Made by a program: the position numbers and the translations under genes
NCBI RefSeq assembly: GCF_003258365.1
Contig: NZ_QHKM01000001.1
Location: 372,001 to 436,000 of the forward strand
Origin: Hymenobacter edaphi
Lineage (GTDB): Bacteria > Bacteroidota > Bacteroidia > Cytophagales > Hymenobacteraceae
Direction of reading: 5' to 3'
DNA: 64,000 nt
The notes under the pieces: model-generated
The model's database searches: none
The model's input: the letters and a program-made list of their open reading frames with translations, nothing else
Told to the model about the DNA's origin: nothing
Part shown: piece after piece, positions 1,398 through 56,821 of the stretch
How positions within the stretch are numbered: the stretch's first letter is position 1
Layout: the number at the start of each line of letters is the position of its first letter

Positions 1398-1503
1398 ATT
1401 GTTGGATTGTTGCATTGTTAAATTGTTGACTAGTTGAAGTTTAGGTGCGGGCTTACAGAACAGCCAGCAATTTGACAATTCAACAATGAAGCAATGCTAA
1501 TTG
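1398..1503. repeat. Octamer-array inverted repeat (ATTGTTGN type)
   Basis: The left arm reads as successive 8-base units ATTGTTGG, ATTGTTGC, ATTGTTAA, ATTGTTGA. The right arm carries complementary 8-base units AGCAATTT, GACAATTC, AACAATGA, AGCAATGC. The arms are separated by about 35 bases of ordinary sequence. It lies between the divergent amn and HsdR-N genes and is strikingly AT-rich against its GC-rich surroundings. It shares its architecture, but not its sequence, with the elements at 6950, 7702, 16857, 41096 and 56739. Confidence 0.75.
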
Positions 1504-1515
1504 GGTACAAAAAAA

Positions 1516-1540
1516 CCGTCGTGCATGTGCTGAACGACGG
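1516..1540 (-). terminator. Orphan hairpin with minus-strand T tract
   Basis: Seven-base arms CCGTCGT/ACGACGG are followed on the minus strand by seven T. It looks like an intrinsic terminator for leftward transcription, yet no leftward gene lies upstream of it; the next gene to the right is transcribed rightward. It may be a relic or may stop transcription escaping leftward from the HsdR-N promoter. Confidence 0.35.
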
Positions 1541-1583
1541 CTCTGCGAAGCGAAAAGCGGGTGCAGGAGCCTGACTTGTGCCG

Positions 1584-1591
1584 TACCTTTG
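1584..1591 (+). promoter_or_regulatory. Bacteroidota -7 box (TACCTTTG)
   Basis: Matches TAnnTTTG and ends six bases before the ATG at 1598, so the transcript would be nearly leaderless. No convincing -33 TTTG is seen at the usual spacing. Confidence 0.4.
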
Positions 1592-1597
1592 GAGGTG

Positions 1598-2077
1598 ATG
1601 CAAGCGTTGAACCTGCCGCCTTTCGCCCACAAACTTACGCAATCCGGCGCAAATCTGCTGATCTGGGACGCGCTGCGCCGCCGCCACGTGGTGTGCACGC
1701 CCGAGGAATGGGTGCGCCAGCACGTGGTCCATTACCTGGTGGAGCACCTGGGCTACCCCCGCGGCCTGCTCAGCCTGGAGCGCGGCCACACCTACAACAC
1801 CCGCCGCAAGCGTACCGACCTGCACGCCCTCGGCCCCGACGGCCAGCCCCTGCTGCTGGTGGAGTGCAAAGCCGCCGCGGTGCCGCTGACGCCGGCCGTG
1901 ACCATGCAGATTGCCACCTACAACCAGACCGTGGGCGCCCCGCTGATGCTGGTGACCAACGGCGTGCAGCACTACTGCTGGCGCGTGCACCCGCTGGCGC
2001 GCACCACCCAGGCCCTCACGTTCATTCCCACCTACGCCGAAGCCTTGGAGCTGCTGGCCGTGGCCCGGCCGCAGTAA
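1598..2077 (+). CDS. Type I restriction HsdR N-terminal-like (PD-(D/E)XK) protein
   Basis: A 159-residue stand-alone protein matching the HsdR N-terminal domain family found as a single-domain protein across Bacteroidota. The nuclease-fold signature is visible as Asp74 in RRKRTDL, then Glu89-x-Lys91 in LLLVECK. In real restriction enzymes this fold cleaves DNA, but no helicase, specificity or methylase subunit lies nearby, so its role here is unknown and it need not be a restriction enzyme. The ATG at 1598 is chosen over a TTG three codons upstream because the -7 box overlaps the latter. The archaemetzincin-like gene starts three bases after its stop, so the two probably form an operon. Confidence 0.8.
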   Translation: MQALNLPPFAHKLTQSGANLLIWDALRRRHVVCTPEEWVRQHVVHYLVEHLGYPRGLLSLERGHTYNTRRKRTDLHALGPDGQPLLLVECKAAAVPLTPAVTMQIATYNQTVGAPLMLVTNGVQHYCWRVHPLARTTQALTFIPTYAEALELLAVARPQ

Positions 2078-2080
2078 CCC

Positions 2081-2665
2081 ATGCTGGTTCGGCTGCTGCT
2101 CACGGCGCTGCTGCTCGGCGCGGCCACGGGGTGCCGGCGCGGCCCCGAGGTGGTGTACCTCACCGCTTTCGAGGGCGTAACGCCGGCGCAAGTGACAATG
2201 GTCCAACGCGCTATCGGTGCGTTTTACGGCCGGTCGGTGCGCCTGCTGCCTGTGCAGCGCCACCGCCCGGCTAGCCTCTGCCCGGTGCGCCACCGCCACC
2301 GCGCCCGCCTGGTGTTGGAGCAGCTACAGGCGCTGCTGCCCGACAGCACCGACGGCAAAATCCTGGCGCTGACGACCCGGGACGTGGAAATCGAGGAGGG
2401 GCCGCGGCGGCCGCACTGGGGCGTGTTCGGGCTGGCCAATGAGCTGGGCGGCAATGCCGGCGTGGTGTCCACCTTCCGCCTGCAGGGCCGCGCCGACCGC
2501 CTGCGCAAAGTCAGCCTGCACGAAATCGGCCACCTGCTGAGCCTGCCGCACTGCCGCTCGGGCCTGGCTACCTGCGTGATGCAGGACGCCCGCGGCCGGG
2601 GCGCCACCGTCGACCGCACGCGGGCGCGGCTCTGCGCCGACTGCCGGGCCCGGCTGGCGTGGTAG
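2081..2665 (+). CDS. Archaemetzincin-like zinc metalloprotease, probable lipoprotein
   Basis: A 194-residue protein with a short hydrophobic leader ending at Cys18 (ATGC), a weak lipobox that suggests a lipid anchor. It contains the archaemetzincin zinc signature: HEIGH at 147-151, a third His at 157 followed directly by Cys158, then Cys165-x-Met167 and Cys185-x-x-Cys188. In archaemetzincins the HExxHxxxxxH part binds catalytic zinc and the four cysteines bind a second zinc. Physiological substrates of bacterial archaemetzincins are not known. The N-terminal membrane anchor would place it outside the cytoplasm, which is unusual. The gene follows the HsdR-N-like gene with a three-base gap, suggesting co-transcription. 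Confidence 0.82.
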   Translation: MLVRLLLTALLLGAATGCRRGPEVVYLTAFEGVTPAQVTMVQRAIGAFYGRSVRLLPVQRHRPASLCPVRHRHRARLVLEQLQALLPDSTDGKILALTTRDVEIEEGPRRPHWGVFGLANELGGNAGVVSTFRLQGRADRLRKVSLHEIGHLLSLPHCRSGLATCVMQDARGRGATVDRTRARLCADCRARLAW

Positions 2666-2786
2666 GGTGCCGGATTGGTACCGAACCACGGACCGGCGGG
2701 ATTATTTTGTGCCCAGCGGAGGCCAATCAGCGCCAAAATCGGCTACCTTCCGGCTAGGTGCCGCCGCAACCACTGCACCCCCGCTT

Positions 2787-4634
2787 ATGGTCGAAAGCGA
2801 CGTCACTCCCCTCGGGGCGCCACCGGCCGCCCTGGTTTACCTCAACGGCCAGGGCGAATTCGTGCACGGCAACGAGGCTTTTGCGGCCCTGACCGGCCAT
2901 TTGCCAGCCGGCCTGCCCGGGCAATCGTTGCTGGCACTGGTCGAGCCCGCGGCGGCCGCGGCCGCACTGCCGGTGCTGCGCCGCGGCCTCGGCGGCGAAA
3001 CGCTGACCTGCGAAGTGCCCCTGCGCACGGCGGCCGGCCGCTACGAGCGGTTTGCCCTCACCATGTTTCCGCTGCACCCCACGGCCGCGGCCGGCACCGG
3101 GGCCCTGGTGCGCCCGGCCGGCGCGCTGCCCGCGGCGGCCGTGCAGGAGCGCGAAAAGCAGCTCTCCATCATCTTCGAAACCATTGCCGACGTGATTTTC
3201 GTGCTGAAGGTGGAAGGCTCCGGCCAGTACCGCTTTCAGTTCGTGAACCACGCCTTCACGCGCATCACCGGGCTCAGCCCCGAGCTGGTGGTGGGCAAGC
3301 TGGTGACCGAGGTCATTCCCGAACCCTCGCTGAGCCTGGTATTGGGTCATTACCAGCAGGCCGTGCAAACCGGCCAACCCGTACGCTGGGTCGAAACCTC
3401 GGACTACCCCTCGGGCCGGGTGGTGGGCGAGGTGAGCGTGAAACCCGTGTTCGACGCCCGCGGGCAGTGCAGCCAGCTGGTGGGCGTAGTGCACGACCTA
3501 ACCGAGCAGCAGCAGGCCGAGCACGCCCTGCGCGACAGCAACGAGCGGTTTCGCTACGCCCTCAAGGCCACCACCGACGCGCTCTACGACTGGGACGTGG
3601 CCGCCGACACGCTTTTCTGGGGCGAAGGCTTCGAGGAGTTGTTTGGCTACCACCTCGCCCAAAACCCGACGCCCTTCCACCAGTGGTCGGGGCACGTACA
3701 CCCCGAGGATGCGCCGCGCACCGTCGACGACCTGCGCCACACGGCCCTGCACACCGCGCGCACCCGCTGGCAGCAGGAATACCGCTTTCAGCGCGCCGAC
3801 GGCAGCTGGGCCGCCGTGTTCGACCGCGGCTACCTGCTGCGCGACGCCGCGGGGCAAGCCGTACGCATGATCGGGGCCATGCAGGATATTTCGGAGCGCA
3901 AGGAGGCCGAGCGGCGGCAGCAGCAGCTGGCCCAGGAGCTGTTTCAGCACAACGCCGACCTGCAGCAGTTCACCTACGTCGTGTCGCACAACCTGCGCGC
4001 TCCGCTGGCCAACGCCACGGGCTTTGCCGGGCTGCTGAGCCGCCTGCAGCCCGGCGCGCCCGAGTTCGGGCAGGCCATCGAGCACCTGCACACCAGCCTG
4101 CGCCGCGTCGATGAGGTGCTGCGCGACCTGAACACCATCCTGTCGGTGCGGGGCCAGGCCCTGCTGGCCGAGCCCGAGCCCGTGGCGCTGACCGACGTGC
4201 TGGGCGAAGTCACCGATCTGCTGGTGGAAGACCTGGCCAACTGCGGCGGCGAAATCCACAACGAGCTGCCGGCCGGCCTGCGCGTGCTGGGCCGCCGGGC
4301 CTACTTCCACAGCATCTTCTACAACCTGCTGGCCAACGCCATCAAGTACCGGGCACCGCAGCGCGCCCTGCGCGTGATTATCAGCGCCGAGCCGCCCGCC
4401 GAGGACTTCGTCACGCTCCGCGTGGCCGACAACGGCGCCGGCTTCGACGCCGGCCGGACCGGCACCGACGCTTTTCAGCTCTACCAGCGCTTCAACAAGG
4501 CGGTGCCCGGCCGGGGCATCGGCCTGTTTTTGGTGAAAGCGCACACCGAATCGATGGGCGGCCGCGTGACCGTAGTGAGCCAAGTCGGTCAGGGTACTAC
4601 CTTTACGTTGCAGTTCCGCTTGCCCGCCGCATGA
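2787..4634 (+). CDS. PAS-domain sensor histidine kinase
   Basis: A 615-residue cytoplasmic kinase with no membrane segment. Three PAS-like regions occupy about 10-110, 115-250 and 255-385; the third ends in a typical PAC motif (RMIGAMQDISERKEAE). A helix then leads into the dimerisation domain with phospho-acceptor His401 (YVVSHNLRAP). The ATPase domain shows the N box (FYNLLANAIKY), G1 box (VADNGAGFD) and G2 box (GRGIGLFLVKA). The start at 2787 is preferred to an upstream in-frame ATG that would add a non-conserved 40-residue tail. Its end overlaps the next gene, a response regulator, by four bases (ATGA), so the two are almost certainly translated together and work as a pair. The signal is unknown. 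Confidence 0.88.
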   Translation: MVESDVTPLGAPPAALVYLNGQGEFVHGNEAFAALTGHLPAGLPGQSLLALVEPAAAAAALPVLRRGLGGETLTCEVPLRTAAGRYERFALTMFPLHPTAAAGTGALVRPAGALPAAAVQEREKQLSIIFETIADVIFVLKVEGSGQYRFQFVNHAFTRITGLSPELVVGKLVTEVIPEPSLSLVLGHYQQAVQTGQPVRWVETSDYPSGRVVGEVSVKPVFDARGQCSQLVGVVHDLTEQQQAEHALRDSNERFRYALKATTDALYDWDVAADTLFWGEGFEELFGYHLAQNPTPFHQWSGHVHPEDAPRTVDDLRHTALHTARTRWQQEYRFQRADGSWAAVFDRGYLLRDAAGQAVRMIGAMQDISERKEAERRQQQLAQELFQHNADLQQFTYVVSHNLRAPLANATGFAGLLSRLQPGAPEFGQAIEHLHTSLRRVDEVLRDLNTILSVRGQALLAEPEPVALTDVLGEVTDLLVEDLANCGGEIHNELPAGLRVLGRRAYFHSIFYNLLANAIKYRAPQRALRVIISAEPPAEDFVTLRVADNGAGFDAGRTGTDAFQLYQRFNKAVPGRGIGLFLVKAHTESMGGRVTVVSQVGQGTTFTLQFRLPAA

Positions 4635-5023
4635 CGATTTATTTGATCGACGACGACTCCCTGGGTAATTACCTGACCGAAGCCTTGCTGAGGCTGGAAA
4701 ACTTTGCCAGCCAGATTCGCACCTACGAATCGGCCGAGGACGCGCTGGTGGAGCTGCTGCGGGCCCCCGTGCCGCCCCGCGTCATCTTCTTGGACCTGAA
4801 CATGCCCGTGATGAGCGGCTGGGACTTTCTCGAAGCTCTGGCGCCCCACCGCCCCCGCCTGCTGGGCCAGTGCCACATCTACATCCTCACCTCGTCCCTG
4901 GCGTTGTCGGACATGGAGAAGGCGCGCACCTACGACCTGGTGAGCGGCCTCATCCACAAGCCCATCGACCGGGAGGAAATCCGCGCCATTCAGGCCGAGC
5001 TGACCGCCGAAGACCACAGCTAA
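4631..5023 (+). CDS. CheY-like single-domain response regulator
   Basis: 130 residues consisting only of a receiver domain: acidic cluster Asp7-Asp8-Asp9, phospho-acceptor Asp55 (IFLDLNMPVMSGW), Thr87 and Lys110 (IHKPI). No output domain follows, so it probably acts by protein-protein contact or as a phosphate relay. The start codon overlaps the end of the kinase gene, giving tight coupling. It is convergent with the sulfatase-fold gene, whose stop lies nine bases away with no strong terminator between them. Confidence 0.9.
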   Translation: MTIYLIDDDSLGNYLTEALLRLENFASQIRTYESAEDALVELLRAPVPPRVIFLDLNMPVMSGWDFLEALAPHRPRLLGQCHIYILTSSLALSDMEKARTYDLVSGLIHKPIDREEIRAIQAELTAEDHS

Positions 5024-5032
5024 AGCTAAAAG

Positions 5033-6946: not shown

Positions 6947-6949
6947 TAA

Positions 6950-7037
6950 GGTGAAATGGTGAAATAGGGAAATGGTGAGTGATGTTCTGGTGTGTCGAAT
7001 GTCGAACTCACCAGTTCACCAGCTCACCAAATCACCA
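6950..7037. repeat. Octamer-array inverted repeat (GGTGAAAT type), fills an entire intergenic gap
   Basis: Left units: GGTGAAAT, GGTGAAAT, AGGGAAAT, GGTGAGTG. Right units: ACTCACCA, GTTCACCA, GCTCACCA, AATCACCA. A roughly 24-base non-repetitive centre separates them. It begins three bases from the sulfatase-fold start codon and ends directly at the stop codon of the SMI1-like gene, so it is the complete spacer between two genes. It is the same sequence family as 16857 (inside rnpB) and 41096 (trpG/trpD). Confidence 0.8.
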
Positions 7038-7637: not shown

Positions 7638-7660
7638 AAGCAAAAGGAAAGCAGTTCAGC

Positions 7661-7698: not shown

Positions 7699-7701
7699 GA
7701 G

Positions 7702-7794
7702 TAATTAACAATTAAGAATGAAGAATTAATTATTGAATCGGGCAGACGCCGAAACAGCAATTGTTAATTCTTCATTCTTAATTATCAATTGAAG
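7702..7794. repeat. Heptamer-array inverted repeat (ATTAAGA type)
   Basis: Left units of seven bases: ATTAACA, ATTAAGA, ATGAAGA, ATTAATT. Right units: TGTTAAT, TCTTCAT, TCTTAAT, TATCAAT. The centre is ordinary GC-rich sequence of about 20 bases. The element ends immediately before the stop codon of ald. It has the same layout as the octamer arrays but a period of seven. Confidence 0.75.
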
Positions 7795-8972: not shown

Positions 8973-9108
8973 GGCAAGGTTTCGCGCGGGCGGGCGAACA
9001 ACAGTTAGTTTGTGGGGGCTGAGCGGCGGCCAACTCGTTGTAACAGCAGCAAGTCAGCGGCTTGCTCAGATGTTTCGGCGGCGCCTGACCACAGCCGCGG
9101 AGCGGCGC

Positions 9109-9197
9109 CATATTGGTAGTCCGGTTGGCTTAGAAGAAAATAGAGCGGCAGCGCAGCGGCACCTCTCCGCGCGGAAGGGTGTCGCTGCGCTGCCGCT
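9109..9197. repeat. Interspersed repeat with GC-rich hairpin, copy A
   Basis: Begins with CATATTGGTAG, then after about 25 bases a hairpin with 19-base arms (one mismatch) around AGCGGCAGCGCAGCGGCAC. The same ordered features occur at 27895-28018. On the minus strand the hairpin is followed by a T-rich run, so it may also serve as terminator of the lipoprotein gene. The rest of the 345-base gap between ald and the lipoprotein gene shows nothing recognisable. Confidence 0.5.
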
Positions 9198-9270
9198 TCG
9201 GTGTATTTATGCTCGCTCTAAACGACCAGTACGGCGCTGCTACGCGGCTGTATCCTGGTGCCCAGCCGCA

Positions 9271-9762
9271 TTAGAATCGGTACCGGTTGCTCGGAATTTC
9301 GATGACCCGCGCGAAGCTGCCGGCCGGCGAATACACCCGCGGGTGGTAAAACAGCTGCAGCTGGTAATCGGCCTTCGACTGGGGCCGTGTTGGGCCGCCG
9401 AAGCGGCTCAGGGGCAGCTCGTAGGTGCGCGTGACGCTGCCGTGGGCCGGCACCGTGATGCGCTGGTCCTTGCCGCGGCGCATGTGCAGCTCCCAGGGCA
9501 GGGCCTGCCCGTTTACCCACACCACCGGCAGGCAGGCCTGCGTCTGCGCCGGGTCCGATACCACGAAGGGCAAGTCGTTCTGATTGACCAGCTCCACGGT
9601 GGCGCGCACGCCTTCCAGGTCGGTGCCGGGCGCGATGGGGGGCAGGCTCACGCGCACCTGCAGGCCGTACTGCGGCGTGACGCGGGGCGAGCGGACGTTG
9701 CGGGCGCAGCCGCCGAGCAGCGCCGCCGAAAACAGGAGCAGGGCGGGTAGGGAAAAACGCAT
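9271..9762 (-). CDS. Hypothetical lipoprotein
   Basis: 163 residues with a signal peptide and a clear lipobox (LLGGC, lipidated Cys19), so it is probably anchored in the outer membrane or periplasmic face. The remainder (VRVSLPPIAPGTDL, ATVELVNQNDLPFVV, PAHGSVTRTYELPL) alternates like an immunoglobulin-like beta sandwich. No catalytic motif is visible and I do not recognise a named family. It lies downstream of the DUF1573 gene on the same strand but behind a terminator. Confidence 0.75.
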   Translation of the reverse strand: MRFSLPALLLFSAALLGGCARNVRSPRVTPQYGLQVRVSLPPIAPGTDLEGVRATVELVNQNDLPFVVSDPAQTQACLPVVWVNGQALPWELHMRRGKDQRITVPAHGSVTRTYELPLSRFGGPTRPQSKADYQLQLFYHPRVYSPAGSFARVIEIPSNRYRF

Positions 9763-16559: not shown

Positions 16560-16615
16560 GCTGATAAACGAACCGGCCGCCGCTGCGGGTTGCAACGACG
16601 GCCGATCTGAAGTTA

Positions 16616-17073
16616 GGTGATGCGCCTGTAAGCCGGGTTCTGTCCGCCCCCGAAGGAGCGGCCCCACCATTTATCTAGGCCCGAACTCGCGCGCGGGCTC
16701 CATCAGCCTACCCGCCGACCGGACGAGCCGCCCGTTGCCAAGCCTTGCGGCCTGGCGTGCCGGCCTATTTGGCCTTTCAACCCCTGAGGTTTACCCAGCC
16801 GGACGGTCACCCGCCCGCTGGTGCGCTCTTACCGCACCTTTTCACCCTTACCGGAAGGTGAGATGGTGAAATTGTGAAATGGTGAGTGTCGTTGGACGAT
16901 TGACTCACTAGTTCACCAATCACCATTTCACCGCCCGGCGGTAGTTTTCTGTGGCACTGGCTGTCCGGCGGCCGTTCCCAGCCGCCGTCCTTCCCGTTAG
17001 GAAGCAGGGTGCTCTGCGTTGCCCGGACTTTCCTCTCCGCCCTTGCGGGCGCAGCGGTGGGGCGGCGCATCAC
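16616..17073 (-). ncRNA. rnpB: RNase P RNA (bacterial type A) with a repeat inserted in P12
   Basis: The catalytic RNA of RNase P, which removes 5' leaders from pre-tRNAs. On the minus strand it has the signature GAGGAAAGTCCGGGC near the 5' end, CCACAGAAAACTACCGCC, GGTAAGGGTGAAAAGGTGCG, GGTAAGAGCGCACC, and near the 3' end AGATAAATGG and ACAGAACCCGGCTTACAGG. The ends pair as helix P1 (TGATGCGCC with GGCGCATCA). The length of about 455 is roughly 70 more than usual, and the excess is one repeat element at the tip of P12. A TACCTTTG -7 box lies directly upstream. The exact ends are inferred from P1. Confidence 0.95.
16857..16932. repeat. Octamer-array inverted repeat inside rnpB (P12 arm)
   Basis: Left units: GGTGAGAT, GGTGAAAT, TGTGAAAT, GGTGAGTG. 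Right units: ACTCACTA, GTTCACCA, ATCACCA, TTTCACCG. It lies between the two conserved strands of the P12 base and would extend that helix in the RNA. It is clearly the same family as the intergenic elements at 6950 and 41096 (shared core GAAATGGTGAGT). Confidence 0.88.
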
Positions 17074-19499: not shown

Positions 19500-22070
19500 C
19501 TACCGGGCCCGGGCCTGGGGAGCGGCGGCGGCGGCCTGCTGCAGCAAACCGGCTACCTGCTCCTGAAGCTGCCGCAGGAGGGCGTGGTCGGCCTGGGCCT
19601 GGGCGGCTAGCGCCTCGGCGGAGGCCTGGGCCTGAGCGGCGCGGGCTTCCAGGGTTTGGTTGCGGGCCTGCAGCTGCTCAATCAGCGCCTGCTGCTCCTG
19701 CACGGCCTGCACCAGCGGCACCACGAACTGGCCGTAGTTCAGGCCGTAGATGTCGCGGGCGTGGGCCGGCTGATGCACCCCGTCGAAGGTGTAGCCCACG
19801 GCCGCCGCCGCCGCCGCCACTTCCTGGGCCAGAAAGCCGGTGCGCCGCGGGCCGGCTGCGGCCGGGTCGGCGGCGGGCGGGGGGGCACCGTGCTGGAAAG
19901 CCGTTTGCGCGGCCGCGTCGAGGTGGTAGCTGACCGGGCGCAGGCGTTGGATAAAGGCCAGGCCCGGCACGTCGGCCCGCACCTGGCGCTTGAAGCGCGC
20001 GTCGGAAGTCACCGTCAGGCCCACCTGGCAGCGCAGGGTCGTCACCGCGCTGTTGCCCAGCTGGATGGTGTTGCTGGTCGATACGGTGGCGGCGTAACCC
20101 AGGGCCGTGGTGTTGGTCAAGCTCCCGGTGGAGGGGCCGCTGCTCAGGCCCAGCGCCGTGTTGTTGTCGCCCGTCGTATTATTGAGGCCGCTGTTGGCGC
20201 CATAAAACGCATTGCCGTCCCCGGAAACGTTGTTGAGGCCGCTTAAAGAGCCCGTAAACGCGTTCAGATGGCCGGCAATATTAATGCTCCCGCTGGCGCG
20301 GCCGATGAACGTATTATCACTGCCGTTATCGTTGCCGTGGCCGCTCCTGTGCCCAATGAACACGTTACTGTTCCCGTCGGTATTCTCGTAGCCACTCTCC
20401 ACCCCGCTAAATACATTGCGGGCGCCGGTGGTATTGCCGAAGCCGCTGCGGTAACCCGTGAACACGTTGTCGGTGCCGGTGGTGGTGGCCTGGCCGCTGA
20501 AGGCGCCGGTGAACGTGTTGCCCGTGGCCGCGGTGTTGCTGAAGCCGCTGCGGTAGCCCGCAAACACGTTGTAGTCGCCGGTGGTGTTGGCCTGCCCGCT
20601 GCTGGTGCCCGTAAACACGTTGCGGATGCCGGTGGTGTTGTCCTGCCCGGCCAGGTAGCCCGTAAACACGTTGCTGGTGCCGGTCGTATTCGCCTGCCCG
20701 GCCTCGTAGCCCGTAAACACGTTGAAACCCCCGGTGGTGGTGGCTTCGCCGGCGCGCGTGCCCACCATCACGTTGAAGCCTCCGGTGGTGTTGGTCCGCC
20801 CGCTCTGGTAGCCCACAAACACGTTGTTGCCACCGGTCGTATTCGCCCGCCCCGCTTCGTAGCCCGTAAACACGTTGTCGGCGCCGGTGGTGGTGGCCTG
20901 GCCGCTGAAGGCGCCGGTGAACGTGTTGCCCGTGGCCGTGGTGTTGCTGAAGCCGCTGCGGTAGCCCGTAAACACGTTGTAGTCGCCGGTGGTGTTGGCC
21001 GGCCCGCTGCTGGTGCCCATGAACACGTTGCGGATGCCGGTGGTGTTGGCCTGCCCGGCCAGGTAGCCCGTAAACACGTTGCCGTACCCGGTGGTGTTGA
21101 ACTGCCCGGCCTGGTAGCCCGTGAACACGTTGCCGTAGCCGGTGGTGTTATCCTGCCCGGTGACGGCCCCGGTGAAGACGTTACGGTCGCCGGTGGTGTT
21201 ACCTGAGCCCGCTTGGAAGCCTACGAACACGTTGCCCGTGCCCGTGGTGTTGTTCAGGCCGCTGCCGCGTCCGGCAAAGGTGTTGCTGCTGCCGGTGGTG
21301 TTCACCAGACCGGCCAAATAGCCCGTGAACACGTTGCTGTTGCCGGTGGTATTGGCCTCGCCAGCCTGTGAGCCGGCAAACACGTTATAGCTGCCAGCGG
21401 TGTTGGCCAGGCCGGCCCGCGCCCCGGTGAATACATTTTCCGCACCAGTGGTGGTGACTAGGCCGCTGCGGTACCCCACGAACACGTTGTTGTCGCCGGT
21501 GGTGACCCGGCCAGCCTGGTAGCCGGCGAAGGTGTTGCCCAGGCTCAGCCCAGTCAGGGCCTGCCCGGCTTCGAAGCCCAGCACCACGCCGTTGCCAGCC
21601 GTGTGCTGCCCCAGGTTTAGGCCGCCATCGGCGCGCACGCCTACGCCCACGGTGCCCGCTGGCAGGCTGGCGCCGCTGCCCACCAGCGCCTGGCTCTGGA
21701 GGTTCAGCGCCTGGGTGGCCGCGTGGCTACCCAGGTTGTCGCCCGCGCCGCCCACGGGGTTGAGCTGCTGCCAACTAGGGGAGGCAGCGGTACCGGCATT
21801 GTAGTAGAAGCCACTCGGGGCGTCGGTTTGGTACACCAGCAGGCCGGGGGCCGGCTGCCCGATAGCCGCCCGCTGAGCGGCCGTCAGGCGGGGCACAAGC
21901 ACGCCTTTACCGGAACTGACGATGTCAAGGGCGGCCGAGGCATCGGGGGTAGTGGTGCCCAGGCCCACACCCTGGGCGCTGGCAGCCGGGGCGGCCCCCC
22001 CCAGCAGCAAAGCCAACAGCAGAACGGCCGGCAGCAGGCCACGCCGGGTAAGCGAGTAGGTGTGGTTCAT
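19500..22070 (-). CDS. Repeat-rich surface protein with C-terminal S74 intramolecular chaperone
   Basis: 856 residues. A signal peptide (to about 33) is followed by a module common in Bacteroidota surface proteins (GLGTTTPDASAALDIVSSGK...LVYQTDAPSGFYYN). Next come 27 tandem 17-residue units of the form TTGxxNVFTGYxAGxxN (190-648), likely forming a YadA-head-like beta roll. An S74 peptidase/chaperone-of-endosialidase domain starts at 689 with the self-cleavage motif SDARFK, and the protein ends in an Ala/Gln-rich coiled coil (about 785-845). In phage tail fibres S74 directs trimerisation and then cuts itself off. No other phage gene is present, so this is probably a cellular trimeric adhesin-like protein. 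Confidence 0.88.
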   Translation of the reverse strand: MNHTYSLTRRGLLPAVLLLALLLGGAAPAASAQGVGLGTTTPDASAALDIVSSGKGVLVPRLTAAQRAAIGQPAPGLLVYQTDAPSGFYYNAGTAASPSWQQLNPVGGAGDNLGSHAATQALNLQSQALVGSGASLPAGTVGVGVRADGGLNLGQHTAGNGVVLGFEAGQALTGLSLGNTFAGYQAGRVTTGDNNVFVGYRSGLVTTTGAENVFTGARAGLANTAGSYNVFAGSQAGEANTTGNSNVFTGYLAGLVNTTGSSNTFAGRGSGLNNTTGTGNVFVGFQAGSGNTTGDRNVFTGAVTGQDNTTGYGNVFTGYQAGQFNTTGYGNVFTGYLAGQANTTGIRNVFMGTSSGPANTTGDYNVFTGYRSGFSNTTATGNTFTGAFSGQATTTGADNVFTGYEAGRANTTGGNNVFVGYQSGRTNTTGGFNVMVGTRAGEATTTGGFNVFTGYEAGQANTTGTSNVFTGYLAGQDNTTGIRNVFTGTSSGQANTTGDYNVFAGYRSGFSNTAATGNTFTGAFSGQATTTGTDNVFTGYRSGFGNTTGARNVFSGVESGYENTDGNSNVFIGHRSGHGNDNGSDNTFIGRASGSINIAGHLNAFTGSLSGLNNVSGDGNAFYGANSGLNNTTGDNNTALGLSSGPSTGSLTNTTALGYAATVSTSNTIQLGNSAVTTLRCQVGLTVTSDARFKRQVRADVPGLAFIQRLRPVSYHLDAAAQTAFQHGAPPPAADPAAAGPRRTGFLAQEVAAAAAAVGYTFDGVHQPAHARDIYGLNYGQFVVPLVQAVQEQQALIEQLQARNQTLEARAAQAQASAEALAAQAQADHALLRQLQEQVAGLLQQAAAAAPQARAR
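20127..21503 (-). repeat. 27 tandem 51-base coding repeats with a nested 408-base duplication
   Basis: Encodes residues 190-648 of the S74 protein. Units 9-13 and 17-21 are nearly identical to each other in order (IRNVF, DYNVF, ATGNTF, DNVF), eight units or 408 bases apart, showing expansion by blocks as well as by single units. Confidence 0.85.
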
Positions 22071-27748: not shown

Positions 27749-27773
27749 AATGACTGAATGACCGAATGATTGC
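27749..27773. repeat. Single-arm octamer array (AATGACTG type)
   Basis: Three 8-base units AATGACTG, AATGACCG, AATGATTG directly after the GH13 stop codon. No complementary arm is visible, so it may be a half or decayed element. Confidence 0.5.
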
Positions 27774-27839: not shown

Positions 27840-27894
27840 CTTGGTAGGCTGAAGAAGACGTCGGCGGTGGTCCTTGCCCGCCGCCGCGCGGCAC

Positions 27895-40528: not shown

Positions 40529-41113
40529 ATGAATATTCTCGTTTTCGACAACTACGACTCCTTCACCTACAACCTCGTGCAGGTGCTGCGCGAGCTGGGC
40601 CACGGCGCCCGGCTGACCGTGCGCCGCAACGACCAGCTCGATCTGGATGAGGTGGCGGCCTACGACGCGGTGCTGTTGTCGCCCGGTCCCGGGATTCCCT
40701 CGGAGGCCGGCCTGATGCCCGCGCTGATTCAGCGCTACGCCCCCGCCAAGCGCATTCTGGGCGTGTGCCTGGGCCACCAGGGCATTGCCGAAAGCTTCGG
40801 CGCCGAGCTGGTGAACCTGACCGAGGTGCACCACGGCGTGGCCAGCCAGGCCACCGTCACGGTGCCCGAGGAGCGGTTGTTCCGGGGCCTGCCGGCGCAG
40901 TTCAACGTGGGGCGTTACCACTCCTGGGCGGTGCGCCCCGGCTCCCTGCCCGCCAGCCTCGAAGCCACTGCCCACGACGCCAGCGGCGAAATAATGGCTC
41001 TGCGTCACCGCCGCTACGACGTGCGCGGGGTGCAGTTTCACCCCGAGTCGGTGTTGACCGAGCACGGCCACCAACTGCTGCAAAACTGGCTCGAAGGTGA
41101 AATAGTGAGATGA
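40529..41113 (+). CDS. trpG: Anthranilate synthase component II (glutamine amidotransferase)
   Basis: Releases ammonia from glutamine for TrpE. 194 residues with the class I triad Cys80 (GVCLGHQG), His171 and Glu173 (FHPES), and the oxyanion motif SPGPGIP. Odd feature: the last five residues (GEIVR) and the stop codon lie inside an octamer-array repeat, so the repeat has supplied the C-terminus of the protein. The family C-terminus is variable, so function is probably not affected. A role in both tryptophan and folate synthesis, as in some bacteria, cannot be excluded. Confidence 0.95.
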   Translation: MNILVFDNYDSFTYNLVQVLRELGHGARLTVRRNDQLDLDEVAAYDAVLLSPGPGIPSEAGLMPALIQRYAPAKRILGVCLGHQGIAESFGAELVNLTEVHHGVASQATVTVPEERLFRGLPAQFNVGRYHSWAVRPGSLPASLEATAHDASGEIMALRHRRYDVRGVQFHPESVLTEHGHQLLQNWLEGEIVR

Positions 41114-41199
41114 TGAAATGGTGAGTTGAGGCGCCGCTTGCGCATGTAACTCTTCTTCAACATCAAACTCGCCACTTCGCCACTTCGCCATTTCACCAC
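41096..41199. repeat. Octamer-array inverted repeat (GGTGAAAT type) spanning the trpG end
   Basis: Left units: GGTGAAAT, AGTGAGAT, GATGAAAT, GGTGAGTT. Right units: ACTCGCCA, CTTCGCCA, CTTCGCCA, TTTCACCA. The centre is about 36 bases. It starts inside the trpG coding region and ends six bases before trpD. Same family as 6950 and 16857. Confidence 0.8.
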
Positions 41200-41204: not shown

Positions 41205-42200
41205 ATGAAAGAACTGCTCACTGCCTTATTCGACCACCACACCCTGAGCCGCCCGGAGGCGCACGCGCTGATGCTGCGGCTGGGGGAGGGCGAGGTCACC
41301 GACGTGGAAGCGGCGGCCCTGCTGGCCGTCTACCGCATGCGCCCGATTACCGTACCCGAGCTGGCCGGCTTCCGCGACGCGCTGCTGGAGCTGTGCCGCG
41401 ACCCGCTGCTGGGCACCCACGAAGTGCTCGACATCGTGGGCACCGGCGGCGACGGGAAGGCCACGCTCAACATCAGCACCCTGGCCTCCTTCGTGGTGGC
41501 GGGGGCGGGCTACAAGGTGGCCAAGCACGGCAACTTCGGCGTGTCGTCGCCGGTGGGTTCCAGCAACGTGCTGGCTTACTTTGGCTACGACTTCGACGCC
41601 GACCCCGACCGCCTGCGCCGGCAGCTCGACACGGCCGGCATCTGCTTCTTGCACGCGCCGGCCTACCACCCGGCCATGCGCCGCGTGGCCCCGGTGCGCC
41701 GCGACCTGGGCGTGCGCACTTTCTTCAACATGCTCGGCCCGCTCATCAACCCCGCCCGCCCGGCGGCCCAGCTGCTAGGCGTGTACAGCCTGGAGCTGCT
41801 GCGTCTCTACCAGTACCTGCTCGAAGACGCCGGCACGCGCTACGCCGTGGTGCACGCCCTCGACGGCTACGACGAGCTGAGTTTGACCGGCGAGGCCAAA
41901 ATTGCCACCTCGGCCGAGGGCGAGCAACTGCTCACGGCCGAAGCCCTCGGCCTGCCGGTGTGCCAGGCCGAGGAGCTGGCCGGCGGGCAGTCGGTGGAAG
42001 GCTCGGCCCGCATCTTCCGCGACGTGCTCGACGGCAAAGGCACCCGCGCCCAGTGCGACGTGGTGGCCGCCAACGCCGCCCTCGGCATCCGCTGCATCAA
42101 TCCCAAGGTGTCGCTGCCCGACGCCCTCGAAGCCGCCTACGACTCGCTCGATTCTGGTCGCGCCCGCCGCGCCTTTATCGGCCTGCTGAACACGCAGTAA
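41205..42200 (+). CDS. trpD: Anthranilate phosphoribosyltransferase
   Basis: Joins anthranilate to PRPP to give phosphoribosylanthranilate. 331 residues. The PRPP-binding loop GTGGDGKATLNIST (about 79-92), KHGNFGVSSPVGSSNVL and RRDLGVRTFFNMLGPLINPA are all as in the family. Starts after the repeat that separates it from trpG. Confidence 0.96.
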   Translation: MKELLTALFDHHTLSRPEAHALMLRLGEGEVTDVEAAALLAVYRMRPITVPELAGFRDALLELCRDPLLGTHEVLDIVGTGGDGKATLNISTLASFVVAGAGYKVAKHGNFGVSSPVGSSNVLAYFGYDFDADPDRLRRQLDTAGICFLHAPAYHPAMRRVAPVRRDLGVRTFFNMLGPLINPARPAAQLLGVYSLELLRLYQYLLEDAGTRYAVVHALDGYDELSLTGEAKIATSAEGEQLLTAEALGLPVCQAEELAGGQSVEGSARIFRDVLDGKGTRAQCDVVAANAALGIRCINPKVSLPDALEAAYDSLDSGRARRAFIGLLNTQ

Positions 42201-50769: not shown

Positions 50770-50796
50770 CCGCTTCGGCCACCGAGCCGGTGCCGA

Positions 50797-51082: not shown

Positions 51083-51943
51083 TTAGGCCTTTAGCCGGAA
51101 CTTCTTCAGCAGGTAGTTCAGCGCAATGGTATTGGCCTGGGTGGCTGCCTTGGCGTCGTACTTGGGGTTCGAGGGGTTGGCAAAGGCGTGGACGGCGTTG
51201 AAGCTGTGCACCGTCAGCTGCTTGCCGGCCTTTTTCATATCGGCCTGAAACTGCTTCACCACGGCCGGGCTGATGCCCTGGTCCTGGGTGGCAAACAAGC
51301 CCAGCACGTCGGTATTGAGGGTTTTGAGCTTGGCCACGTCCTTTTCCGGCATGCCGTAGTACATCACGCAGCCCACGGCCTGCTTGCCGGCCAGCATCGC
51401 CGCCTGCAACGACCAGCCTCCGCCGAAGCACCAGCCCAGGGTGGCTACCTGCGCCTTGGCCCCGGCGCGGGTGAGGGCTCCGCGCAGGATGTTCTTGGCG
51501 CGGTTGTTATCCACGGCCTGCACCAGGCGGCTGGCTTCTTCGGCGGTGGTGGCCAGCTTGCCGTCGTAGAGGTCCACGGCCAGCACCGTCACGCCGGGCA
51601 GCGAAGCGGCCAGCCGGTCGGCTTCGCGCTTGATGTAGTCGTTCAGGCCCCACCACTCGTGAATGACCAGCAGGTACTTGCCGTCCTTGGTGCCCGGGCC
51701 CACCTGGTAGGCGTGGGCCGTGCTGCTGTCGGGGGTGGGGTAGGTCACCAGCTTGCCGGCTTCCTGGTAGTCCAGCGGCAGGGGGGCGTCGTGGCCGCTC
51801 ATAAAGGCCGGGTCGGCGGCCAGGCTGGCAAAGGCGACCAGGGCGTCCGGCGCCGGTTTGGCGCAGCACGAAGGCGCGGCTTGCTGGGCGAAGGCGGCCG
51901 TGGCCGTCAGCAGCGCCAGCAGCGAGACAAGCAGGTGCTTCAT
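51083..51943 (-). CDS. Exported dienelactone hydrolase family protein
   Basis: 286 residues with a signal peptide (to about 19). The alpha/beta-hydrolase has the dienelactone hydrolase triad: Cys172 (LGWCFGGGW), Asp221 (FATQDQGI) and His252 (AVHAFANP). VIHEWWGLNDY is the family oxyanion segment. Members of this family in the periplasm rarely act on dienelactone itself; the substrate is unknown. A Cys-Cys pair (26-27) just after the signal peptide is unusual. Confidence 0.87.
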   Translation of the reverse strand: MKHLLVSLLALLTATAAFAQQAAPSCCAKPAPDALVAFASLAADPAFMSGHDAPLPLDYQEAGKLVTYPTPDSSTAHAYQVGPGTKDGKYLLVIHEWWGLNDYIKREADRLAASLPGVTVLAVDLYDGKLATTAEEASRLVQAVDNNRAKNILRGALTRAGAKAQVATLGWCFGGGWSLQAAMLAGKQAVGCVMYYGMPEKDVAKLKTLNTDVLGLFATQDQGISPAVVKQFQADMKKAGKQLTVHSFNAVHAFANPSNPKYDAKAATQANTIALNYLLKKFRLKA

Positions 51944-52023
51944 AGAATAAGGAGCTGAGAAGTGGGCTTGATGCCTGAATCGAAATCCGGCGCAATAGGT
52001 TGCGGGGCCGGGGCCGGGGCCAC

Positions 52024-52070
52024 CAGCCGCTGCCAGCGGGCCCAGCCGCTGCCAGCGGGCCCGGCCGCTG
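52024..52070. repeat. 19-base tandem repeat, 2.5 copies
   Basis: The unit CAGCCGCTGCCAGCGGGCC occurs twice exactly, followed by a nine-base partial copy. Each unit contains a small inverted repeat (CGCTG/CAGCG). Lies between the ABC1 kinase and hydrolase genes. Confidence 0.7.
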
Positions 52071-52096
52071 CGGCACGGCGGGCGCGGCGGGGCCGG

Positions 52097-53449: not shown

Positions 53450-54087
53450 CGGCGCCGGCCTGCTTGGAGGAGAAAGCGCGCCAGGTCCAGGGCCGAGTCG
53501 AAGGTGTTGCGGCCCACCAGGTCGAAGCTCAGCGTCACGGCCTTTTCCACGGCCGCGTCGGTACGCTCGAAGTTCAACGACTCGTCTTTGGCAAAGAAGC
53601 CGAGCACGAACAGCACCTGCTGCCAGAACACGCGCGGGTATTGTTCCTGCACCAGCGGGCGACTGGCCACCTCCTCGCTCTGCCGGCCCTCGCGCAGCAC
53701 ATCCGTCACGAAGGTTTCGAAGTCCTGGCGGAAGTCGTCGAGCACCCGGGGAGTGAAGCCAGGCACCGACGGCATCGAGCGCTGCAACGACTGCAGCGCG
53801 TAGCTGCGGTGCTGCTTCAGGATTTCGAGCAGGGTGAAGTAAAACGCCAGCAGCTTTTCGCGGGCCCCGTACTCGGCCCACACCGGCTCCTGCGCAGCGC
53901 GGGTGCGGGCGTCGCGCCCGAAGTCGGCCCACAGCTCCCGGTCGATGGCCGCGAACGTGGGGTAGAAGCGGTAAAATTCGGCTTCGGGCAGTGCCAGCTG
54001 CTGCGTGAGCTGGTACACCGAGGCCGGCGGCTGGTTGTGCCGGAGTACGTAGTCGAGGTAAGCCTGCTTGATGCGGTCCTTTTCCAT
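53446..54087 (-). CDS. TetR-family transcriptional regulator
   Basis: 213 residues. The N-terminal DNA-binding domain reads MEKDRIKQAYLDYVLRH, then PASVYQLTQQLALPEAEFYRFYPTFAAIDREL; the latter holds the recognition helix and the typical F-YxxF motif. The C-terminal ligand domain is all-helical (FYFTLLEILKQHRSYALQSL, VFWQQVLFVLGFFAKDES). Start 54087 is chosen as the Met before the first helix. Four-base overlap with the ABC1 kinase gene, which it probably regulates together with itself. Confidence 0.83.
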   Translation of the reverse strand: MEKDRIKQAYLDYVLRHNQPPASVYQLTQQLALPEAEFYRFYPTFAAIDRELWADFGRDARTRAAQEPVWAEYGAREKLLAFYFTLLEILKQHRSYALQSLQRSMPSVPGFTPRVLDDFRQDFETFVTDVLREGRQSEEVASRPLVQEQYPRVFWQQVLFVLGFFAKDESLNFERTDAAVEKAVTLSFDLVGRNTFDSALDLARFLLQAGRRR

Positions 54088-54183
54088 AGCAGAAGCATAA
54101 CCGGTGGGCGGGGCGAATAGTTGAGCAATCAAAAAGTACAGCCGTAATTTTTATGTATTTAAATAATATTTTATTGAACGTAC

Positions 54184-54213
54184 TTGGTATTGTGTGCAAG
54201 CATCGTAATTTTG
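54184..54213 (+). promoter_or_regulatory. Promoter of the OmpA-like gene
   Basis: TTG at 54184-54186, 19-base spacer, TAATTTTG at 54206-54213; the ATG at 54242 follows after about 28 bases. The AT-rich stretch 54120-54190 supports promoter location. Confidence 0.65.
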
Positions 54214-54241
54214 AACAAGCGTATTTTATGTCATCCGACCA

Positions 54242-55333
54242 ATGATACATGCCCTTATCCCGCGTCCGTTGCTGTGTTGGGTGAGCCTGTTGCTCACCGT
54301 AGCGGCGGTGCAGGCCCAAAACCCCGGCAGCACCATCGCCGGCAGCGTGCAGTCGGCCGACCGACAGTCGCTTAGCAAGGCGCTGGTCACTGTGGTGCAC
54401 GTGCCCTCGGGCACCAAGCGCGCCACCACCACCGACGGCAGCGGGCAGTTTGCGCTGGCGGGCCTGACCGCCGGCGGGCCCTACGTGGTGCAGGTCAGCC
54501 AGGCCGGGTTTCAGTCGCGCCTGGCCGACAACGTGTTTCTGACCACCGACCAGCCAACCCGGCTGGCCTTCACCCTGAGCCGGCCGGGTGCCCGGCCGGC
54601 CGGCGGCGCCACCCCGCCCACCTACATCAAGCAGGTGCCGCGCCCCGAGGAAAGGCCCGCCGCGGCTACGGCCCCGGCGCCTGCTCCGGCCACCCTTACG
54701 GCGTCGGCCGCGGCCCCCGCGCCCGCAGCGGGTGAGCCCCCGCGCACCTACCGCTACAAGCCGCAGTACGCGTCCTCGGCGCGCAAGCCGGCCCCGGTGG
54801 TGAAGCCCGCCACCAGCGGCCACTACGACGCCAAAACCGGCAACTACATCTACGAAACCGGGGCTCCCGTCACCCTGAAGCTGGCCGGCGGCAGCCAGCT
54901 GGCCGGCGTGGGGCAGCTTTCCACCGAAAGCCTGCTCCACCGCTTCCTCACCGACCCGGCCGCGCAGGTCGATACCGTGGACCTGACCAAGGGCTGGCTG
55001 AATTTCGACCGGGTGTTTTTCGAGCCCGGCAAGGCCACGCTCACACCCGATTCCAAGGTGCAGCTCGGCCACATTGCCCAGATCCTGCGGGCCTACCCCA
55101 AGGTGCGCATCAAAATCGGGGGCTACACCGACAGCACGGGTACCTATAAGGTGAACCGCCTGCTCAGCGAAGCCCGCGCCCAGGCCGCCTGGGCCGCGCT
55201 GGTGGAAATGGGCGTGGGCGCCAGCCGCATGGATGCCCGCGGCTACGGCCCGCGCTACGCCATTGCGCAGAATACCAGCGAGGAAGGTCGGGCCATGAAC
55301 CGCCGCCTGAGCATTAAGGTGCTGCAGAAATAA
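54242..55333 (+). CDS. OmpA-family protein with carboxypeptidase-regulatory-like domain
   Basis: 363 residues. Signal peptide ending near VQAQN; a carboxypeptidase-D regulatory-like beta domain (TIAGSVQSADRQSLSKALVTV, about 28-118); a Pro/Ala-rich linker (about 120-190); and a C-terminal OmpA peptidoglycan-binding domain from about 245 (LNFDRVFFEPGKATLTPDSK...IGGYTDSTGTYKVNRLLSEARAQA). The Asp and Arg residues that hold diaminopimelate (YTDSTG, NRRLSIKV) are present. No transmembrane barrel is visible, so it probably links the envelope to the cell wall. Confidence 0.88.
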   Translation: MIHALIPRPLLCWVSLLLTVAAVQAQNPGSTIAGSVQSADRQSLSKALVTVVHVPSGTKRATTTDGSGQFALAGLTAGGPYVVQVSQAGFQSRLADNVFLTTDQPTRLAFTLSRPGARPAGGATPPTYIKQVPRPEERPAAATAPAPAPATLTASAAAPAPAAGEPPRTYRYKPQYASSARKPAPVVKPATSGHYDAKTGNYIYETGAPVTLKLAGGSQLAGVGQLSTESLLHRFLTDPAAQVDTVDLTKGWLNFDRVFFEPGKATLTPDSKVQLGHIAQILRAYPKVRIKIGGYTDSTGTYKVNRLLSEARAQAAWAALVEMGVGASRMDARGYGPRYAIAQNTSEEGRAMNRRLSIKVLQK

Positions 55334-55343
55334 CCTCTGGCAT

Positions 55344-55405
55344 CAAGCCCAACAGCCCGCGCCGAACTGCCGATGATGGTAGTTGGGCGCGGGCTGTTGG
55401 GCTTG
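55344..55405. terminator. Bidirectional terminator
   Basis: About 20-base arms beginning CAAGCCCAACAGCCCGCGCC pair perfectly, with an extra AACT/AGTT step above. Lies between the convergent OmpA and photolyase genes. Confidence 0.75.
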
Positions 55406-55414
55406 GGCGGCGCC

Positions 55415-56737
55415 TCAGCCGCCCGCCGCAGTCTGGTAAGCCGCCCGGTAGGTATCAATGGCCCGCTGCCGGGCCCATTTGTGCTCCACCATGGGCGCGG
55501 GGTAGGCAGGCGTGCCGAGTTCGGGCACCCAGCGGCGCACATACTCATGCGTGGGGTCGAATTTCTGCAGCTGCGAATCGGGGCTGAACACCCGAAACCA
55601 GGGCGCGGCCACCACGCCGGTACCGGCCACCCACTGCCAGTTACCCACGTTCAGGGCCAGGTCATAGTCGAGCAGCTTGTCGCCGAAGTACCGCTCGCCC
55701 CAGCGCCAGTCGATGAGCAGGTGCTTGACCAGGAAGCTGGCCGCCGCAATGCGGGCCCGGTTGGGCAGGTAGCCGGTCTGGTTCAGCTCCCGCATGCCCG
55801 CGTCGATGAGTGGGTAGCCGGTCTGGCCCGCGCACCAGCGCTGAAAGTCCGCCTCGGCGTGGCGAAACGGCACCCCGCGCAGCCGCGGCTCGAAGCTTTG
55901 CTCGGGCAGCTGCGGGTAGTGCCAGAGCAGCATCATAAAATAGTCGCGCCAGATCAGCTCGGCCAGCAGCTTGGGGTTCAGCTCCTGCGCCTGCCGCATC
56001 AGCTCCCGCACGCTCAGCGTCCCGAAGCGCAGGTGTACCGAGCGCCGCGTGCTGCTGTCGACGAGGTGCAGCTGGTCGCGGGTGGCGTGGTAGTGGCGCA
56101 CCAGCTGCTCGGCCGGCAGCTCCGCGGCGGGCACAAATTGCGCGTACCGCTCAAAACCCATCGAGGGCAGCGTAGGCCGCGGCGGCGCGGTGGGCAAGTG
56201 CTGCAGCCGGCCCCGCAACAGCTCGGCCGAAGGGGCCGGCTGCAGCATTTCGGGGCGCAGGGCCGCCAGCCAGGCGTCGCGGTAGGGGCCGAAGCTGCGG
56301 TGCGGGGTGCCGCTCTTGGTCAGCACCTCGCGCCGGTGAAAAATCACCTGGTCTTTCCGGGCCTCGAAGCCGATGCCGCGCTGCCGACACTGCTGCGCCA
56401 CGGCGGCGTCGCGGGCGGTGGCGTAGGGCTCGTAATCGGTGTTGGTGTACACCGCCGCCACGTCCAGTTGCTCGAAGAGCTGCCGGAAAACCTCTTCCGG
56501 CCGCCCGTAATATGCCAAAAACGTGCCCCCGGCCGCGGCGGTCTGCTCCGCCAGCCGCTCCACCTGATCGTGAATGAACGTGACGCGCGCATCCCGCGGG
56601 CGCGTGACGTGGTCGAGAATGTCGGTGTCGTAAATGAAGAGGGGCACGACGGGCAGGCCGCTCTGCAGGGCGGCCGTCAGGCCCGCGTTGTCGTGCAGGC
56701 GCAGGTCGCGCCGGTGCCAGAACAGGGCTACTTGCAT
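55415..56737 (-). CDS. phr: Deoxyribodipyrimidine photolyase / cryptochrome
   Basis: 440 residues with the N-terminal antenna domain (LFWHRRDLRLHDNAGL) and the FAD domain (LLAELIWRDYFMMLLWHYP, GQTGYPLIDAGMRELNQTGYLPNRARIAAASFLVKHLLIDWRWGERYF split over conserved helices, then DYDLALNVGNWQWVAGTG). This fits class I CPD photolyases, which repair UV dimers with blue light; a cryptochrome-type photoreceptor function cannot be excluded. It lies downstream of the SDR gene on the same strand; the whole spacer is a repeat element. Confidence 0.92.
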   Translation of the reverse strand: MQVALFWHRRDLRLHDNAGLTAALQSGLPVVPLFIYDTDILDHVTRPRDARVTFIHDQVERLAEQTAAAGGTFLAYYGRPEEVFRQLFEQLDVAAVYTNTDYEPYATARDAAVAQQCRQRGIGFEARKDQVIFHRREVLTKSGTPHRSFGPYRDAWLAALRPEMLQPAPSAELLRGRLQHLPTAPPRPTLPSMGFERYAQFVPAAELPAEQLVRHYHATRDQLHLVDSSTRRSVHLRFGTLSVRELMRQAQELNPKLLAELIWRDYFMMLLWHYPQLPEQSFEPRLRGVPFRHAEADFQRWCAGQTGYPLIDAGMRELNQTGYLPNRARIAAASFLVKHLLIDWRWGERYFGDKLLDYDLALNVGNWQWVAGTGVVAAPWFRVFSPDSQLQKFDPTHEYVRRWVPELGTPAYPAPMVEHKWARQRAIDTYRAAYQTAAGG

Positions 56738-56738
56738 G

Positions 56739-56821
56739 GGGTAGGAGGGTATGCGGGTAGGAGGGTGTGAGGGTTATCGTTCGGCCAACTACTAAACTCC
56801 TGCCCCCATACCCTCACGCCC
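56739..56821. repeat. Octamer-array inverted repeat (GGTAGGAG type), fills an entire intergenic gap
   Basis: Left units: GGTAGGAG, GGTATGCG, GGTAGGAG, GGTGTGAG. Right units: CTCCTGCC, CCCATACC, CTCACGCC. The element begins one base from the photolyase start codon and ends at the SDR stop codon. Same architecture as the GGTGAAAT family but different units. Confidence 0.78.

Follow-up and report, generated by a model that had tools for sequence, protein, structure and literature searches.

Inverted arrays of 7- and 8-base units in gene gaps and the RNase P RNA gene of Hymenobacter

Introduction

Heptamers of the short tandemly repeated repetitive (STRR) type have been noted in cyanobacteria for decades, and we know of no accepted origin or role for them. 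Here we analyze arrays of this type in a 64,000-nucleotide stretch of the Hymenobacter edaphi genome (the window; exactly identical to bases 372001-436000 of contig C11 in a 6.04-Mb genome), where a sequence-only reading had described intergenic elements made of several tandem 7- or 8-base units, a unique centre, and several units of the complementary motif. These array hairpins are of the same, poorly explained kind as the cyanobacterial STRR repeats; octamers, the Bacteroidota host, and the diversity of arrays in one helix of RNase P RNA are the new part.

STRR repeats of heterocyst-forming cyanobacteria are intergenic, usually 7 bp long, and capable of forming hairpins, with function unknown (PMC2670836). 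Tandem degenerate heptamers likewise lie in the gene gaps of H. edaphi (68 period-7 arrays in 1.2 Mb), arrays of opposite orientation are able to form a hairpin, and an array lies here too within the RNase P RNA gene, a likeness at the level of the gene. Unlike STRR repeats, the Hymenobacter arrays comprise 8-mers besides 7-mers, occur in Bacteroidota, fall into 11 unit groups within a single RNA helix of one family, and show unit switching, counted over 0.39 Mb between close species. Because 53 of the 118 elements that we catalogued have period 8, we class them as an STRR variant and not as a plain member.

Comparable heptamers are described elsewhere. In the P6b stem of the Nostoc tRNA-Leu intron, degenerate heptamers belong to Class I (TDNGATT) or Class II (NNTGAGT), and the class has repeatedly been replaced at one site with the structure kept (PMC4476775). 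Such replacement at a fixed site while the stem persists is also seen here, but that report deals with two classes in one intron, whereas our arrays occupy an RNase P helix and many intergenic loci. Intergenic GGGAATC heptamers of Xanthomonas make up 70 inverted pairs in one genome and 75 in another; these often lie close to stop codons, most are transcribed, and 83% are at the same place in the sister species, and the Nostoc counterpart is GGGGA(C/T)T (PMC4692102); in contrast to Hymenobacter, the sections of that study available to us give one G-rich unit type per genus and do not describe unit switching. TAACTGA heptamers are intergenic in Beggiatoaceae, Cyanobacteria, and some Bacteroidetes; the main genome has 169 direct sets and a single indirect repeat (PMC4679880). 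The units GTTGTCA and GTTATCA found here are close to TAACTGA by rotation and complement, but hairpin pairs are not described in the text seen of that paper. Finally, repetitive extragenic palindromes (REP) and bacterial interspersed mosaic elements (BIME) carry GTAG and CGTC tags (PMC3733652); similar intergenic palindromes share gaps with arrays here, but the copies that we met lack tandem 7/8-mer arms. In the openly accessible literature, with subscription papers mostly outside it, we found no report of such arrays in Hymenobacteraceae or of octamers with this plan.

Results

Excess at periods 7 and 8

A strict scan of 1.2 Mb of C11 for inverted array pairs within 200 bp of each other returned eight pairs at period 7, eleven at period 8, nine at period 14 (twice 7), one at period 6, and none at period 5 or at 9 to 13, while Markov control sequence of equal length gave none at any period. 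Arrays in the gene gaps of this 1.2 Mb numbered 68 at period 7 and 80 at period 8, against 18 to 27 at each other period of 5 to 13. An opposite array was present within 150 bp for 40/68 and 50/80 of them, respectively (reversed-unit control, 14 and 0); this test gave 0 to 2 at each of the periods 9 to 13 and cannot discriminate at periods 5 and 6. Across the 6.04-Mb genome, GGTGAAATGGTGAAAT with up to two mismatches had 226 matches versus 2 for the reversed pattern, a control that is not valid for AATTAAG because its reverse falls in the same array family. At periods 7 and 8 the array hairpin class is present far beyond chance, and the comparison with controls, a check proposed in the sequence-only reading, did not refute it.

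Our catalogue initially held 133 inverted elements and was reduced to 118 by removing 15 with an arm G+C fraction of at least 0.62, 14 of which were in H. edaphi and resembled coding palindromes. It misses three known arrays, namely the one in RNase P RNA (kept in Hymenobacter jeollabukensis), C11 462245 (a REP-type palindrome in H. jeollabukensis), and the one at window position 41096. The arms matched better in register than one unit off in 109/118 of these dispersed elements and in 49/54 RNase P inserts, counts that lean upward since the register was the best fit. A universal strand polarity, with more G than C in the 5' arm as in fused telomere arrays, was considered and rejected: it held in 111 versus 7 dispersed elements, but in 42 versus 10 RNase P inserts (plus 2 ties), among which whole unit types (CATTTAC and CATTTAA) are reversed in polarity.

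Arrays in RNase P RNA

One array of the window (16857-16933) lies within the RNase P RNA gene, in a stem-loop bounded by ACAGAAA..ACCGCC and GGTAAGGGTGAAA that we take to be helix P12, judging from the flanking consensus and the type-A structure. The gene was present in 120/120 sampled Hymenobacteraceae genomes. We extracted 82 P12 inserts: one each from the window and H. jeollabukensis, ten from named Hymenobacter loci, and the rest from 70 of the 120 family genomes. Of these inserts, 26 were short, at 8-20 nt, and 56 were long, at 49-104 nt, proportions that do not represent a frequency since 40 of the 70 genes were picked for length and 30 as best scoring. All 54 distinct long inserts had their best repeat lag (range, 4 to 12) at 7 (39 inserts) or 8 (15 inserts), where shuffles would place about 12 of 54. 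As these inserts were picked by place and length and not by repeats, they are the least biased proof of the array class.

Greedy clustering (≤2 differences) resolved the P12 units of Hymenobacteraceae into 11 groups. Mapped onto a tree built from 80 RNase P cores, whose bootstrap support is not settled, these groups plus "none" require 38 changes, compared to a minimum of 11 and a shuffled expectation of 49.6. Two genes with 97.4% core identity (L116 and L258) differ in that one has the native 20-nt tip and the other an 81-nt array without visible remnant of the tip, and two others (L255 and L257) have an identical centre with different units. The long inserts fold into long helices, and the model folds make it very likely that P12 arrays fold as RNA.

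Array sites in two close species

Orthologous gaps were compared for gain, loss, and unit switching between H. edaphi and H. jeollabukensis, the closest named relative that we met (97% protein identity in one gene), along one alignment chain (C11 209-600 kb to 0.4 Mb of H. jeollabukensis, 0.39 Mb). Orthologous flanks were found for 18/19 catalogued H. edaphi elements in the aligned region, a set that leaves out RNase P, C11 462245, and window 41096. H. jeollabukensis holds a catalogued inverted 7/8 array at 15/18 sites, eight of the same family (some with an altered centre) and seven with another unit (C11 282564, 379697, 428736, 442012, 448324, 464047, and 476888). By reading, the remaining three hold a palindrome of REP type, a run of one-sided repeats, and terminator-like hairpins. 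The background consisted of the 131 mappable H. edaphi gaps of 60-300 bp, out of 178 without an element, with 273976 and 346087 outside it; just one has a catalogued H. jeollabukensis element, and H. edaphi there reads as a degenerate array. An H. jeollabukensis array was therefore present at 7/10 unit-changed sites versus 1/131 array-free gaps (Fisher, 5e-9). Seen from the other side, 15 of 18 catalogued H. jeollabukensis elements have a catalogued array in H. edaphi, one has a weak array (346087), and two have none by the finder (273976 and 278829), although the counterpart of 278829 reads as a degenerate array. A site mostly remains an array site while its unit may change.

At the seven switched sites, arm identity (best gapless offset each time) was 0.83 within species and 0.61 between orthologous arms, with random elements at 0.54 (sd 0.14); the eight kept sites gave 0.80 and 0.86. 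Both arms changed together at switched sites. Flanks of the switched sites were 90.5-97.3% identical to H. jeollabukensis on thirteen sides and 82.9% on one, similar to those of kept sites. By reading, a paired unit at C11 511230 is absent from both arms in H. jeollabukensis, which has an additional outer unit, and C11 493607 shows the double compensatory change AAAT/ATTT to AACT/AGTT. GGTAGGAG and GGTAAGAT occupy one orthologous site, and some "different" units such as these look linked by small steps.

REP-type palindromes (GTAGCGCG... and CGTCATGCTGAGC...) sit in gaps whose orthologue in the sister species holds an array (C11 348394 and 462245, and L119 at the gap corresponding to window position 1398), and one such palindrome lies inside an array.

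Families of units

Three arrays of the window belong to one family, termed A. Among the 27 family-A elements of H. edaphi and H. jeollabukensis, an inner motif was present on at least one side in 21 versus 3/47 other elements (TTGATGTTC or GTCGTTC on the left in 14/27, and the right-side counterpart in 14/27), a motif picked after viewing the copies. Since the copies share a centre motif, the family spread as a unit. Across 14 genomes, hits ranged from 1 (G084) to 422 (G092) for GGTGAAAT, from 0 (H. edaphi and two others) to 157 (G084) for TTAGCTG, and from 2 to 87 for GGGTAGGA; hits of a family overlap and are not copy numbers. In five genomes with a matching pattern, the P12 unit is abundant in its own genome (GGTGAAAT in G000 with 226, G092 with 422, and G120 with 137 hits; TTAGCTG in G084 with 157; GGGTAGGA in G114 with 87). 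Yet G108, with 287 GGTGAAAT and 138 TTAGCTG hits, has a different P12 unit.

Flanks of the 27 family-A copies shared 3-letter words in 3 cases (shuffled, 3.8) and words of at least four letters in none, giving no target site duplication. Nor did 1.2 Mb contain a cargo form of family A, as arm pairs numbered 0 at 150-400 bp apart and 2 at 400-5000 bp apart, versus 4 in control order. With neither sign found in the 27 copies and the 1.2 Mb scanned, we did not favour a transposase origin of this family.

Two further observations concern GGTGAAAT. G006, of the same genus, has 17 matches to its reversed pattern, perhaps yet another 8-mer family, and nine perfect tandem units at G008:C22:243600-243671 resemble a recent slippage-like expansion.

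Virus-classed contigs

Period-7 inverted arrays numbered 73 in viral_contigs stretches (L261-L358) with an exact triple of AATTACG (40 stretches) or GTTGTCA (58 stretches), against 2 to 9 at each other period of 5 to 13; since the stretches were preselected for period-7 arrays, only the inverted plan is informative. An opposite array was found for 10/43 and 17/59, with controls of 0 and 1. Three tandem GTTGTCA units (≤2 mismatches) occurred in 30/296 genomes of the phylum. Virus-classed contigs bear 7-mer inverted arrays of like plan, and phages or prophage edges could ferry them between hosts.

Loci of the window and gene context

All seven places at which the sequence-only reading had listed an array or arm were confirmed by sequence reading and tandem rows (Table 1). 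Its claim that the unit differs between groups stands for ATTGTTGN, GGGTAGGA, and the 7-mer AATTAAG, which are distinct, whereas 6950, 16857, and 41096 form one family (GGTGANNT), so that the five loci are not five groups. The array finder (score of at least 18) listed 1398, 6950, 7702, and 16857, and the filtered catalogue holds 1398, 6950, 7702, and 56739, without 16857 and 41096. The array at 41096 is in neither list, its right arm being GGCGAAGT and not GGTGAAAT.

Table 1. Arrays of the window and the RNA gene that hosts one of them
Feature	Position in window	Strand	Detail	Basis
Inverted array, 8-mer ATTGTTGN	1397..1499	.	Left arm 1397-1438, right arm ~1468-1497, unique centre	Sequence reading, tandem rows, array finder
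Inverted array, 8-mer GGTGANNT	6948..7037	.	Family A	Sequence reading, array finder
Inverted array, 7-mer AATTAAG	7702..7791	.		Sequence reading, array finder
RNase P RNA gene rnpB, class A	16613..17073	-	Array host	Rfam RF00010, 249.9 bits, E 3.5e-80
Inverted array, 8-mer GGTGANNT	16857..16933	.	Tip of RNase P RNA helix P12 (presumed)	Reading, array finder, Rfam match of host gene
Single arm, 8-mer AATGACTG	27749..27772	.	Three units; opposite arm not seen	Direct reading, tandem rows
Inverted array, family A	41096..41199	.	Left arm GGTGAAAT, right arm GGCGAAGT	Direct reading, two tandem rows
Inverted array, 8-mer GGGTAGGA	56736..56825	.	C11 428736-428825	Reading, tandem rows, filtered catalogue

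The first array is kept in H. jeollabukensis as a single aligned piece (88.7% identity over 106 bp). That at 6948 fills the gap between the start of a minus-strand gene on its left and the stop of another on its right; it is kept in H. jeollabukensis (92.8% over 97 bp), and L093 and L094 carry other units in this gap. At 7702, H. jeollabukensis has the unit AATTATG/AATTCTG between flanks about 96% identical. The open reading frame (ORF) at 40529-41113 terminates within the left arm of the array at 41096, and the next ORF begins at 41205. The last array directly adjoins two minus-strand genes, one at its start and one at its stop, and H. jeollabukensis has an unlike array there.

None of the 56 H. 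edaphi elements lies inside a gene by a simple custom gene caller, a result due in part to the prior removal of 14 GC-rich H. edaphi candidates. Elements commonly fill the whole space between one gene's stop codon and the start of the following gene, and the stop is often part of the element. Neighboring genes were tandem for 40, convergent for 8, and divergent for 8 elements (background of 736 gaps: 469, 123, and 144), and with an orientation that is not unusual, an operon-specific function was set aside. Stops in all three frames occurred in 73/177 5' arms versus 53.9 (sd 4.9) under unit-position permutation, and in 46/104 RNase P arms, which are untranslated, versus 34.3 (sd 4.4). This excess is weak and equally present in untranslated arms, and we rejected three-frame stop cassettes.

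Two other repeats were also noted. A 188-bp stretch at window 9083-9271 replaces 24 bp of H. jeollabukensis and has CCATATTGGTAG and similar sequence in common with a place near 27890, perhaps another dispersed repeat, and tandem repeats of 51/102/153 bp occupy 20403-21354 within the long minus-strand ORF 19500-22070.

Discussion

We propose, with a probability of roughly 0.5, that the arrays are hairpins of the STRR kind in which slippage and template switching from arm to arm rewrite both arms jointly, with families also spread by copying. The starting points are the observed period rule, the persistence of most sites, and the joint change of both arms; from these we infer which steps replication takes, that arrays outside RNase P have hairpin form, and why sites persist. 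Each locus would form a hairpin in DNA and RNA, and replication slippage would add, lose, and spread units along an arm. The nascent strand could then switch template to the opposite arm and write into one arm the complement of its partner, whereby a new unit variant would take over both. Template switching has been reported to generate RNA hairpins and to preserve them (PMC8794818). Families would in addition spread to other loci by copying. A hairpin between genes or on P12 may be harmless or mildly useful, through RNA stability or spacing, so that its place is kept, while arrays in coding sequence would be lost.

Several results weigh against this proposal. The switch at C11 448324 alters the period from 8 to 7, and some switched sites have no alignable centre; together these indicate that whole-array replacement probably also occurs. 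Gain or loss occurs as well, as H. jeollabukensis has a family-A element at 273976 where H. edaphi is clearly without an array, and the spread of family A as a unit, by copying, must also occur. In P12, the period differs between L245 and L247, and L228 has lost a unit on one arm relative to its relatives. Covariation support for P12 pairing is thin, with unfavourable RNAalifold covariation terms in two P12 sets (+1.64 and +0.94 kcal/mol) and both-sides changes in only 9/34 pairs of one set and 1/31 of another. Finally, the mutation was not caught in the act in the one species pair and 0.39 Mb compared.

A possible but less convincing account is that families of non-autonomous mobile elements, similar to miniature inverted-repeat transposable elements (MITEs) or to REP doublets forming hairpins (REPINs), replace each other at permissive sites, and that the shared plan is a hairpin recognised by one type of transposition machine. 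The inner motif of family A, the amplification of families genome by genome, the abundance of the P12 unit within its own genome in five genomes, and the REP-type palindromes and arrays that share an orthologous gap would all be expected from it. Family A, however, shows no target duplication in 27 copies and no cargo form in 1.2 Mb, the native RNase P tip was exchanged and not interrupted (L116/L258), G108 is rich in two families and has another P12 unit, and a single machine would have to accept many unlike units. Import of alternative arrays from other strains or species by homologous recombination through conserved flanks seems improbable to us. The P12 flanks hardly vary within the pairs shown, which would permit exchange, and on the RNase P tree the unit groups are dispersed (38 changes for a minimum of 11); but flanks of switched intergenic sites are as identical to H. 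jeollabukensis as those of kept sites, the P12 unit is abundant within the same genome in the five genomes compared, and recombination moves variants without making them. We consider it very improbable that the arrays are sequence-specific functional sites, whether as arrays that bind protein, as terminators, or as gene-end cassettes of stops in three frames. Their common position from stop to start codon, often with the stop inside, and the excess of three-frame stops would suit such a role, but RNase P arms, which are not translated, show a like excess, the members of a family are not independent of one another, neighboring genes have no unusual orientation, and the unit changes at a site.

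The sequence-only reading had conjectured either that some process grows complementary arrays on the two arms or that a common structural selection acts on several families, and both fit in part. The plan is independent of the unit (54/54 long P12 inserts), the arms change together, and most sites persist through unit change. The reading's argument that a shared plan with different sequence speaks against simple copying gains from that independence and loses from the shared centre of family-A copies and the families amplified genome by genome. Its contrary case, that the groups are diverged copies of one transposase-type family, met no transposase sign in family A and nothing tying the 7-mer to the 8-mer units, and its suggestion of RNA hairpins holds best for P12, where RNA folding is very likely; elsewhere the hairpin form is putative.

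More speculatively, and in our view rather unlikely, a sequence-independent but period-dependent process in several phyla might build and rewrite hairpins in 7- or 8-base steps on both arms, with P12 and operon gaps being where its products survive and the step length set by the machinery (polymerase, nuclease, or other factor) and not by the unit sequence.

P12 carries 11 unit groups in one family, with arrays often gained, lost, or switched, and amounts to a natural experiment in which the plan (complementary arms of period 7 or 8) can be told apart from the sequence and the origin of the arrays becomes testable. If the rewriting of arms proposed here is true, selection and a mutation mechanism would both maintain pairing in RNA stems, at many loci simultaneously, and the arrays offer a route to study the evolution of a poorly understood class of bacterial DNA repeats.

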